Shown here piece after piece: positions 30,087-33,706 of a DNA stretch of 64,000 nucleotides. A program made the translations under genes and the position numbers. This stretch comes from Acidimicrobiales bacterium (GTDB lineage Bacteria; Actinomycetota; Acidimicrobiia; Acidimicrobiales; Poriferisodalaceae): assembly GCA_009843525.1 (NCBI GenBank), contig VYDH01000018.1:124001-188000 (forward strand), given 5' to 3'. The notes beneath the pieces are model-generated. The model searched no databases. It saw only the letters and a program-made list of their open reading frames with translations, and was not told the origin of the DNA. Every line of letters begins with the position of its first letter. Position 1 is the stretch's first letter.

Positions 30087-31178
30087 TCAGTCGAAGGTGA
30101 TGACGGTGCGGTTGGATTCGCCGGCCTTCATCCAGCCGTAGCCCTCGTTGATCTGTTCGAGATCGATGCGTGCCGAGATCATCTCGTCGAGCATGAGGCG
30201 GCCATCGAGGTAGAGGTCGATCATCATCGGGATGTCGCTGCGGAACTGGTTCGAGCCCATCATCGAGCCCTGCAGCTTCTTCTCCGCCAGAAAGTCGATG
30301 CCGCGCAGCTCGACCTTGGTCTTCGACGGCACCATGCCGATCACGGTGGCGGTGCCGCCGATGTCGAGCATGTTGAACGCTTGCTGCACGGTCTCGGCCA
30401 AGCCGATGGCTTCGAAGCTGTACTCCACGCCGCCCTTGGTCATGTCCTTCACGGCGGTCACCACGTCGTCTACCTCGGCGGCATTGACGGTGTCGGTGGC
30501 GCCCATCTGGCGGGCGGTCTCGAGCTTCGTCTCGGTCATGTCCACCGCAATGATCCGACCGGCGCCTGCCACACGGGCGCCTTGCACGGCCGACAGGCCG
30601 ATGCCCCCGCAGCCGATCACGCACACCACGCTGCCCACGCCGACGCCTGCGGTGTTCACTGCCGCGCCGAAGCCCGTCGTGACGCCGCAGCCGATCAGGC
30701 ACGCCCGGTCGAGCGGCATGTCGGGCCGCACCTTCACCACGGCGTTCTGGTGCACCAGCATCTGCTCGGCGAAACCGCCGAGCCGAGCCATCTGGCCAAC
30801 CTCGGTGCTGTCGTCACGCTCGAGCCGGGCCGCGGCGCCCTTGGCCCGCGAGGTGGCCCGAATATTGGTGCAGCGGTGCGGGTTGCCCGACAGGCAGCGG
30901 TGGCATTGGCCGCAGAAAATCGATAGGCACGCCACCACGTGGTCGCCGGGCTTCACGTAGCTCACGTCGCTGCCCACAGCCTCCACCACACCGGCCGACT
31001 CGTGGCCCATCACCAGCGGGAGCGGCGTGCGGAACAGGCCCTCCATGAAGTGCAGGTCGCTGTGGCACAGCCCCGCGCCCTTGGTCTGGATGAGCACCTC
31101 CTGCGGCCCCGGCGCATCGATGCGCAAGTCCTCGATCTCCAGGTCGCCCGGCTGCTCGCAGAGCACTGCTGCCTTCAT
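30087..31178 (-). CDS. zinc-dependent alcohol dehydrogenase (MDR superfamily)
   Basis: A 363-residue medium-chain dehydrogenase. The catalytic zinc ligands are in AGLCHSDLH and MGHESAG, the structural zinc cysteines in CLSIFCGQCHRCLSGNPHRC, and the cofactor site is VIGCGGIGLSAVQGA. It oxidises alcohols or reduces aldehydes with NAD(H); several actinobacterial relatives use mycothiol or the cofactor-like acceptor NDMA, which cannot be judged here. The ATG at 31178 has the ribosome site GAGGGG. Codons upstream in the open frame extend antisense into the divergent promoter region. Confidence 0.93.
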   Translation of the reverse strand: MKAAVLCEQPGDLEIEDLRIDAPGPQEVLIQTKGAGLCHSDLHFMEGLFRTPLPLVMGHESAGVVEAVGSDVSYVKPGDHVVACLSIFCGQCHRCLSGNPHRCTNIRATSRAKGAAARLERDDSTEVGQMARLGGFAEQMLVHQNAVVKVRPDMPLDRACLIGCGVTTGFGAAVNTAGVGVGSVVCVIGCGGIGLSAVQGARVAGAGRIIAVDMTETKLETARQMGATDTVNAAEVDDVVTAVKDMTKGGVEYSFEAIGLAETVQQAFNMLDIGGTATVIGMVPSKTKVELRGIDFLAEKKLQGSMMGSNQFRSDIPMMIDLYLDGRLMLDEMISARIDLEQINEGYGWMKAGESNRTVITFD

Positions 31179-31355
31179 CGCGTTCCCCTCGCGTTGTGCA
31201 ACCACGACAGTGGCTTCGCTTGACGCTGTCGAGATTAGGCGCGCAGCCGCAAACGCGTGCTCCAGATGCCCATCGCGTCCCCGCCGCCATCGGCCGTCGA
31301 GGCGGAAGGTGCGGTAGCGTCGATTCCAGCGGGACACGGCCGTCGAGGGGGAGTC

Positions 31356-31952
31356 ATGGCGAATGAGCACGGCTACTTGCCGAAGGTGACCGAGCTAGAC
31401 GACAAGCAGCAACGCCGCTTGGACACGTGGTACGCGAAGGCCTACACCGACGACAACCTGTTCCGCACGCTGGCTGCGGACGAGACCACCATCGACCTGT
31501 TCCTCGGCTGGGTCGGAGCCGTGTACGGCGGCCATCCCGACGAGGATCCCGGTGCGCTCGACCGGCACATGATCGAGCTGTGCCGCATCCGGATGGCCAA
31601 CCGGAACGAGTGCTTCCACTGAAGCCTCGTCAAGAGCGCATCGTTGGTGCGCACCGGACTGACTGACGAGGTCATCGCCCAGCTCGTCGACTACGAGGCA
31701 TCGGAGCTGCCCGAGTCGTGGAAGGCCGCGCTTGCACTGTGTGATCGGCTCTCAGGCTTCGAACACCGCGGGATCATCCCGCCGGAGCTGTATGAGCGGC
31801 TGAGCGATCACTTCAACCCCCAGCAGATACTGCGCCTCGGTGCGCTGCTTGCCTCCGCGAGCGGGTGGCACCGGATGATCGAAGCGTTCGGCATCCGGCC
31901 CGACCACTACCGGGCCGACCGGGATGCTCCCTGGGCCGCGGCTGCAGATTGA
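31356..31952 (+). CDS. AhpD/carboxymuconolactone-decarboxylase-like protein, probable selenoprotein (in-frame TGA = Sec89)
   Basis: A 198-residue reading interrupted only by TGA at 31620-31622. Upstream residues (IELCRIRMANRNECFH) and downstream residues (SLVKSASLVRTGLTDEVIAQ, later LGALLASASGWHRMIEAFGI) both fit one AhpD-like protein. The TGA falls on the second cysteine of the redox motif, giving C86-F-H-U89. AhpD-like proteins use such a thiol pair for peroxide or thiol-disulfide chemistry, and CxxU forms have been reported from marine metagenomes (my recollection). A SECIS-like hairpin follows the TGA. The ATG at 31356 has GAGGGGGAG before it. Alternatives are a nonsense mutation or sequencing error, but the exact position argues against both. 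Sec machinery is not in this window. Confidence 0.82.
31623..31671 (+). promoter_or_regulatory. candidate bacterial SECIS hairpin
   Basis: Directly after the TGA, an 8-bp outer stem (31625-31632 with 31664-31671, perfect) encloses a 5-bp inner stem (GCGCA 31636-31640 with TGCGC 31648-31652) plus a U-G pair. The apical loop is CGTTG (31642-31646) with G in second place, 19 bases after the TGA, inside the 16-37 range used for bacterial SECIS elements. Confidence 0.65.
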
Positions 31953-31982: not shown

Positions 31983-32843
31983 GTGAGCGAACAGGCAACG
32001 GACGCCGAACCGCTGTCGCCGGGCGACCGGCTCGCCGATGTCGTCGACTTCTTCGGCGTGCAGGCCACCGGTGACGAGCTGCGCTGGCTGCTGCCGATCT
32101 CGCCGAACGTTGCCAACTATCTCGGCGTGATGCACGGCGGCTGCGCTCTTGCCGCGGTCACCGCTGCCGCCGAGACATGGAGCGAGCGGCCGCTCGCAGC
32201 GGCTTCGGCACAGTTCATGGCCCGTGTCCCGCTCGGCGGCAGCGCTGAGGTCACCTTCGACATCGGCTCGGCCGGCAAGCGAATGACGCAGGTGCTCGCC
32301 CAGGTCACCGATGCGGCCGACGGCCGCGTGCTGATGCGAGCGCTGCTGGCACTGGGCGGTCGCCGGCTCGGCATCGATCAGGACTGGGGGCAGCCGCCCG
32401 ACGTTCCGGGGCCAGATGAGTGGCGACGTCGAACTGTGCCGGACAACGCCGTTGCGTCGTTCAGCACTGACGCCGACATCCGGTTCGGTCCGCACAGCGC
32501 CGGCGATCGGCGGATCCTCTGCTGGGCGCGGCTCGCCGGCACGCTGGCCTCCACGCGCCAGGGCCTGATAGCGCTGGCAGACACGCTCGCGACGGGGATG
32601 CACCGCAGCCTTGGCCTGCGGTGGCGTGGCGGCAGCATCGACAACACCGTGCGCATCGCCGGGAATGCCGACTGCGAGTGGGTGCTGCTGGATATCGAGA
32701 CCGACGGATTCCACAACGCTGTCGGCCACGGCGTCGTGCGGATGTACACGCCCGACGGCAGGTTGCTGGCCACCGGGAACCAGTCGTTCGCTGTGGCGCG
32801 GGTGTCGGGCCCGCAGAAGGCCTCCGGACGTAGTCAGCACTAG
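31983..32843 (+). CDS. acyl-CoA thioesterase-like double-hotdog protein (copy 1)
   Basis: A 286-residue protein built of two hotdog-like halves. The first half contains ELRWLLPISPNVANYLGVMHGGCALAA, the second IDNTVRIAGNADCEWVLLDIETDG. It resembles actinobacterial TesB-like acyl-CoA thioesterases, but substrate and activity are inferred. The gene immediately downstream is a clear paralogue. Translation should begin leaderless at the GTG 31983. The family also includes acyl-CoA thioesterases without a conserved catalytic triad, so an ordinary housekeeping role in lipid turnover is possible. Confidence 0.82.
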   Translation: MSEQATDAEPLSPGDRLADVVDFFGVQATGDELRWLLPISPNVANYLGVMHGGCALAAVTAAAETWSERPLAAASAQFMARVPLGGSAEVTFDIGSAGKRMTQVLAQVTDAADGRVLMRALLALGGRRLGIDQDWGQPPDVPGPDEWRRRTVPDNAVASFSTDADIRFGPHSAGDRRILCWARLAGTLASTRQGLIALADTLATGMHRSLGLRWRGGSIDNTVRIAGNADCEWVLLDIETDGFHNAVGHGVVRMYTPDGRLLATGNQSFAVARVSGPQKASGRSQH

Positions 32844-32854: not shown

Positions 32855-33706
32855 GTGAGCGCCGAAGCTGCCACGAGCGACGCCGCGCCGCAGGACCCGC
32901 ACGTCGGCGAGGTGATCGAGTTCTTCGGCCTCCAGTCGACTGCCGAAGAGCTGCGCTGGCTGCTGCCGGTCACCTACGACGTAGCCGGTGCCACTGGCAC
33001 GCTGCATGGCGGGTGCGCGCTCGCGGCCGCCGTAGCGGCCCTCGAAAGCGTCACCGGCCGGCCGATGGCCGCTGCATCGGCCCAGTACCTGGCGCGGCTG
33101 CCGGTGGGCGGCTGTGCGGCCGTCGCACTCGACATCGGCGCCAGCGGCAACCGGATGACCCAGGCCTCCGCGGAGATCACCGATGCTGTCGATGGACGGG
33201 TCATTCTGCGTGCGCTGGTGTCCCTCGGCGGTCGGCAGCTGGGAATCGACCAGACATGGACGACGGCCCCGGACGTGCCGCCTCCGGACTCATGCGAGCC
33301 TCGCGGCCCGACCTCGATTGAGGGCCGGTCGTTCACCGATCACGCCGACATCCGGCTCGCCGGGCAGCAGCCGGGCGAGCGCCACGTCCGGTACTGGGCG
33401 CGTCTCAACAGCACGCTGGCATCGACAGGGCCGGGCCTGACGGCGCTGGCCGACCTGCTGCCGAGCGGCATGCGCGTCAGCCTCGATGCCGGCTTCAGGG
33501 GATCCAGTCTCGACAACACGGTGCGGATCTCCGGCGAGGCCGAGAGCGAATGGGTGCTCTTGGATATCGAATCGGACGCCGTGCACAACGCCATCGGCAA
33601 CGGCATCGTTCGCATCTATTCCTCCGACGGGGGACTGCTGGCGACGGGCACCCAATCGTTCGCAATCACAAGGATCACGGGCCCGCTGGGCTCGCCGCAG
33701 CAATGA
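32855..33706 (+). CDS. acyl-CoA thioesterase-like double-hotdog protein (copy 2)
   Basis: A 283-residue paralogue of the preceding gene; both share FFGxQxTxxELRWLLP, a HGGCALAA core and a VLLDIExD motif in the second half, so the pair arose by tandem duplication. The second gene lacks the extra N-terminal dozen residues. It begins at GTG 32855 from its own TAGCTT element. Its stop overlaps the ATG of menA (ATGA), which ties thioesterase and quinone genes into one transcript; functional linkage beyond that is speculation. Confidence 0.82.
   Translation: MSAEAATSDAAPQDPHVGEVIEFFGLQSTAEELRWLLPVTYDVAGATGTLHGGCALAAAVAALESVTGRPMAAASAQYLARLPVGGCAAVALDIGASGNRMTQASAEITDAVDGRVILRALVSLGGRQLGIDQTWTTAPDVPPPDSCEPRGPTSIEGRSFTDHADIRLAGQQPGERHVRYWARLNSTLASTGPGLTALADLLPSGMRVSLDAGFRGSSLDNTVRISGEAESEWVLLDIESDAVHNAIGNGIVRIYSSDGGLLATGTQSFAITRITGPLGSPQQ

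Follow-up and report, generated by a model that had tools for sequence, protein, structure and literature searches.

AhpD-like selenoproteins with a CxxU redox centre were described in 2005 (Sargasso Sea) and 2008 (GOS survey), according to excerpts of the two reports (PMC1088965, PMC2398784), and also appear in the excerpted list of a 2026 review; the preliminary description of the locus studied here had mentioned such proteins from marine surveys, which these excerpts confirm. The marine families AhpD-like 1 (COG2128), AhpD-like 2 (pfam02627) and CMD domain-containing protein belong, like the product of our gene, to the CMD/AhpD superfamily and, in the same excerpts, carry selenocysteine (Sec) at the second position of CxxU, as our gene does. 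For AhpD-like 1 the excerpted GOS data list 902 Cys homologues and 299 Sec proteins; for AhpD-like 2 the figures are 207 and 70, respectively (PMC2398784). In M. tuberculosis AhpD, the five-residue proton relay is formed by Glu118, Cys130, His132, Cys133 and His137, and the relay His is called invariant across the structures compared in the excerpted text (PMC3141380).

The gene analyzed here lies in a 64,000-nucleotide stretch of DNA from an Acidimicrobiales bacterium (the window). The coding sequence occupies positions 31356–31952 of the forward strand, from an ATG to a terminal TGA at 31950–31952, and is preceded by a putative Shine-Dalgarno-like GGGGGAG sequence (31347–31353). As proposed in the preliminary description, the frame is interrupted solely by a TGA at 31620–31622. 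Reading this codon as Sec yields an AhpD/CMD-like protein of 198 residues with Cys at position 86 and Sec at position 89, the predicted Cys86-Phe-His-Sec89 centre (31611–31622). The frame does go on past the TGA, but for 109 residues rather than the 110 originally counted. With the standard code two open reading frames are obtained (31257–31622 and 31644–31952), the split that ordinary annotation had been expected to make; what is divided in this way is a well-supported selenoprotein gene.

The order was sampled with 298 genomes, 107 of which matched the protein at E ≤ 0.001. These 298 genomes hold 21 close homologues (42–99 % identity, the window's own gene counted). In each of the 21 the matching stretch contains a single TGA, always at the same codon and in the context C[FV]HU. 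A scan of one genome per species (84,980 species, contigs of at least 3,000 bases) with two peptide patterns, a procedure that could miss more distant members, returned 52 matches, from which 47 loci were confirmed. These are labelled Acidimicrobiia, Acidimicrobiales and kin or, more broadly, actinobacteria, and TGA is found at the Sec codon in all 47. Pooling of both sets gave 68 sequences, 51 of them distinct. No Cys codon was found at the Sec position in the 21 close homologues from the 298 genomes or in the 47 scan loci; one of the two patterns does not touch the Sec codon, and Cys forms keeping that peptide would therefore be detected. Random stops elsewhere in the gene, which had been named as a sign against the selenoprotein, were looked for in the relatives: the TGA is kept at one codon and there is no other internal stop. 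In a sample of 396 genomes from the phylum, with at most 8 candidates scored per genome, seven had a match at E ≤ 1e-18. One is the window's own gene and the other six appear, by inspection, to represent other AhpD-like families, so that no member outside the order was found in this sample; the other 20 carriers evidently lie outside the 396-genome draw.

Downstream of the TGA, Ka/Ks values of 0.11–0.25 were obtained (Ks 0.22–0.88) in five same-genus pairs, which have members in common and are not independent. Past the hairpin codons described below, the values for the same pairs were 0.12–0.24. Purifying selection thus acts on the part of the gene downstream of the TGA, which, because Ka/Ks is low there, is not a decayed fragment, in agreement with the initial view of the 3′ part. 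Since the TGA stands at one codon in 21 and 47 homologous loci and Ka/Ks after it is in this range, chance is excluded and the in-frame TGA is confirmed as a real feature.

Bacterial SECIS hairpins are usually located just after the TGA. In the window, the forward strand can form a SECIS-like hairpin, GCGCAUC-GUU-GGUGCGC (31636–31652), with a 7-bp stem (31636–31642 with 31646–31652) and a GUU loop, 20 nt after the UGA. Across the 51 distinct sequences, synonymous codons vary largely freely upstream of the TGA and again starting at codon +11, but codons +6 to +10 show almost no such variation. Frozen codons are GCA for Ala (41/41), TTG for Leu (50/50) and GTG for Val (41/41), and TCG for Ser (46/49) and CGC for Arg (38/41) are nearly so, with AGC for Ser in 44/51 at position +5. 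Over the full length of these same genes, GCA makes up 18 % of Ala codons, TTG 18 % of Leu codons and GTG 45 % of Val codons.

The main SECIS test was carried out on 45 loci (37 distinct stretches), with six of the 51 sequences, in which the hairpin is shifted or different (L038, L039, L088, L090, L092 and L094), omitted. All 259 of 259 stem cells pair, compared with 15–53 % in slid-position controls, and two stem pairs are changed on both sides (5 cells), values reached by 4/500 and 0/500 shuffles. RNAalifold gave −10.4 for the main set and 0.0 in all 500 synonymous-codon controls. With the six omitted sequences added, RNAalifold gave −2.2 (200 controls: 0.0), and single sequences had a mean energy of −13.7 versus −10.2 (sd 0.4) in controls; singly, each of the six folds into a hairpin of its own. 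The hairpin offers a clear-cut case of an actinobacterial SECIS with covariation. A cmscan of the locus (L019) against Rfam, which may not model the bacterial element, returned four matches at E ≤ 10, none of them a selenocysteine element. Sequences L038, L088, L090, L092 and L094 form a subgroup whose post-TGA hairpin is unlike the main form. In L038, L088 and L092 the predicted stem starts a few bases earlier, a possible shift of the SECIS register.

Refutation of the selenoprotein by absent machinery, a prospect raised in the preliminary description, fails because the full Sec gene set (selA, selB, selD and tRNA-Sec) is present in the source assembly (3.34 Mb, 43 contigs, 93.8 % complete). 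The selA gene (381 bits) adjoins selB (277 bits) on contig C32, both scoring above cut-off. The selD gene (352 bits; L018, contig C5, 68078–69031, reverse strand) has one in-frame TGA of its own, at a GUACK motif, and its product is therefore probably a selenoprotein itself. The tRNA-Sec scored 66 bits with RF01852 (gathering score 47) and was called SeC with anticodon TCA by ARAGORN. RF01852 alone is not specific, as tRNA-Ser of the same genome reaches 48.4 bits, above the gathering score; the two tRNAs were separated by ARAGORN and not by RF01852. A selA match is present in all 21 carriers (weakest E 1.1e-43, in G070) versus 185 of the 298 genomes overall (hypergeometric p 2.8e-5, uncorrected for kinship). 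The original proposal of a selenoprotein with a CxxU centre is thus backed by the Sec machinery, the shared TGA codon and the conserved SECIS-like hairpin.

The window protein does not reach the cut-off of any of the Pfam and NCBIfam models that match it best, and with NCBIfam it falls far short. With Pfam CMD (PF02627; gathering cut-off 23), a model that matches all 21 homologues at E ≤ 1 (best 3.5e-11), its score is 19.9 bits. Its best two NCBIfam matches by E-value are NF053654 (YciW-related (seleno)protein; 32.8 bits, cut-off 310) and NF041238 (AhpD_rel_CFYUT; 20.1 bits, cut-off 175), and by these scores it is a member of neither; the best E-values among the 21 homologues, of which the other 20 were compared by E-value alone, are 1.2e-12 and 1.5e-5, respectively. 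TIGR01926 (peroxidase-related enzyme) matches 21/21 homologues at E ≤ 1, with a best value of 7.2e-15, and gives 16.9 bits for the window protein against a cut-off of 81.8. Proteins of this kind have been known since 2005; none of the libraries tried has a dedicated model for the subfamily described here and, unlike GOS AhpD-like 1 and 2 with their Cys homologues, it showed no Cys form in our sample, which makes it useful for asking why Sec is kept. No earlier report of the subfamily was found in the open-access papers searched, and the GOS AhpD-like 2 set may already have held members of it.

A structural model was built with AlphaFold2 from the alignment of 21 sequences, with Cys put at the Sec position (pLDDT 83, pTM 0.82, internal low point at residues 95–98). 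The predicted fold is all-helical and AhpD-core-like. The top solved structure found by Foldseek was 2prr, an AhpD-core peroxidase-related protein (E 1.9e-6); the search also found the AhpD-core proteins 3c1l, 2ijc and 6k40 and the debrominase Bmp8 (6ohi and 6ohj; E 7.9e-5 to 3.9e-4); the match to M. tuberculosis AhpD (1gu9) was weak (E 2.6). Sequence profile comparison likewise placed 2prr first (E 6.3e-15), with Bmp8 at E 1.9e-4.

The AhpD relay was mapped by spacing, not by superposition, onto Glu74 (codon 31575–31577, 12 residues before Cys86), Cys86, His88, Sec89 and Lys93 (codon 31632–31634, position +4 from Sec). The first four, including the TGA codon itself, are invariant in 51/51 distinct sequences. 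Our protein and M. tuberculosis AhpD share Glu, Cys, His and Cys/Sec with the spacing of the relay, and the Cys-Ser-His-Cys of the latter also has His right before the second redox residue in the excerpted description (PMC3141380). The differences are Sec in place of Cys133 and a basic residue in place of His137: the fifth position is Lys in 31, Arg in 20 and His in none of the 51 sequences, whereas 2prr has His at +4 in the profile alignment. The initial assignment as AhpD-like therefore holds at the level of the superfamily, by profile and predicted fold, and not for AhpD in the strict sense. Because the relay His, invariant in the structures of that comparison, is replaced by Lys/Arg, the protein should not be filed as a strict AhpD, though its function is likely similar.

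The first 80 listed relatives from the order outside the close group (L096–L175), a set that is not a random draw, have TGA at the second CxxC position in 42 cases and Cys in 38, so Sec use in the AhpD-like superfamily looks widespread in the order. The +4 residue is Arg in 41 and His in one of the 42 Sec sequences, and Arg in 28, His in eight and Gly in two of the 38 Cys sequences (Fisher p 0.011). A strict link of Sec with loss of the +4 His was rejected; since Arg is frequent in the Cys relatives too and the sequences share kinship, the association is suggestive.

Two acyl-CoA thioesterase-like genes (4HBT_3 by Pfam) follow on the same strand, at 31983–32843, 30 nt downstream, and at 32855–33706; the nearer one is possibly in the same operon as the selenoprotein gene. 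On the reverse strand lies a divergent gene for a Zn-dependent alcohol dehydrogenase-like protein (30087–31178, the start at 31178 being inferred, as the longest open reading frame extends to 31370), assigned by Pfam and by TIGR03989, its best NCBIfam model (332.8 bits, cut-off 440). Synteny was followed by tblastn, with hits required to reach E ≤ 1e-10 and to span 40 % or more of the query. Among the 29 loci L049–L077, where some misses are contig ends, the thioesterase-like gene lies no more than 200 nt downstream, in the same orientation, in 26 (61–93 % identity), and the dehydrogenase-like gene is divergent and within 1 kb upstream in 23 and at about 4.2 kb in three more. The arrangement is seen in L050–L072 and L074–L077; L049 is without both genes and keeps other downstream genes, and neither gene had a tblastn match in L073 or in the 18 distant loci L078–L095, several of which are short. 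A neighbourhood common to the whole subfamily was sought and not found, synteny being confined to the closer loci; when the outer loci were compared by naive open reading frames, no cluster joined more than 7 of the 19 loci, and the clustered frames were mostly antisense. With neither gene found in L078–L095, the hint of a tie to lipid or aldehyde chemistry is limited to the closer relatives.

We conclude, with a probability of roughly 0.88, that the gene encodes a selenoprotein, a thiol oxidoreductase of the AhpD/CMD superfamily with the redox pair Cys86/Sec89. The UGA at 31620–31622 would be read by SelB and tRNA-Sec(UCA), steered by the downstream hairpin. On the best reading, the all-helical product is predicted to be a Cys/Sec thiol-peroxidase or oxidoreductase. 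Sec89 selenolate, aided by Glu74, His88 and the basic residue 93, would attack a peroxide (or a disulfide), yielding selenenic acid, which Cys86 would resolve to a selenenyl-sulfide; a cellular dithiol would then restore the enzyme. The analysis itself establishes the open frame, the Sec machinery genes, the conserved hairpin, selection past the TGA and the predicted fold; from there we infer that the UGA is translated as Sec in vivo, as well as the reaction, peroxide as its substrate and the source of electrons.

Were the TGA a true stop, left by a recent pseudogenization or a sequencing error, two fragments would be expected, and the two frames seen under the standard code do fit this picture; the same TGA throughout both homologue sets, purifying selection downstream of it and a frozen hairpin after it make this explanation extremely improbable. 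Insertion of another residue, either Trp by a code-4-like reassignment or some other by near-cognate readthrough, has in its favour that a frame open under TGA as a residue cannot alone tell which residue is meant. We regard it as highly improbable, given that the gene's own terminal stop is TGA, that complete Sec machinery including tRNA-Sec(UCA) is present, that a SECIS-like hairpin follows, and that the position is the second Cys of CxxC, held by Cys or Sec in the 80 second-tier relatives.

The chemistry allows more latitude. Bmp8, a debrominase by its PDB title, acts by thiol-dependent dehalogenation, and a selenoprotein with such a reaction, or an adaptor disulfide reductase, would be in line with the presence of Bmp8 among the fold matches and, weakly, the profile matches, with the loss of the AhpD relay His and with neighbouring thioesterase and alcohol dehydrogenase genes. 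The top fold matches, however, are peroxidase-related proteins, and in the profile comparison Bmp8 is the poorer match (E 1.9e-4 vs 6.3e-15), so a non-peroxide reaction appears rather unlikely. Returning to the selenoprotein with a Cys86/Sec89 pair, we tentatively raise a more specific picture, which is itself doubtful: an Acidimicrobiia-specific, obligately Sec-dependent AhpD-like enzyme in which Lys/Arg replaced the relay His, a selenolate calling for charge stabilisation and not deprotonation, and which in the closer relatives would work with the acyl-CoA thioesterase and divergent alcohol dehydrogenase in handling lipid peroxides or aldehydes.

The same genome contains a second AhpD-like gene with an in-frame TGA (L179:1501–1740; contig C31, 14056–14295, forward strand), with the motif CHYU. 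Read through the TGA, its product scores 136 bits with TIGR01926, above the cut-off of 81.8.
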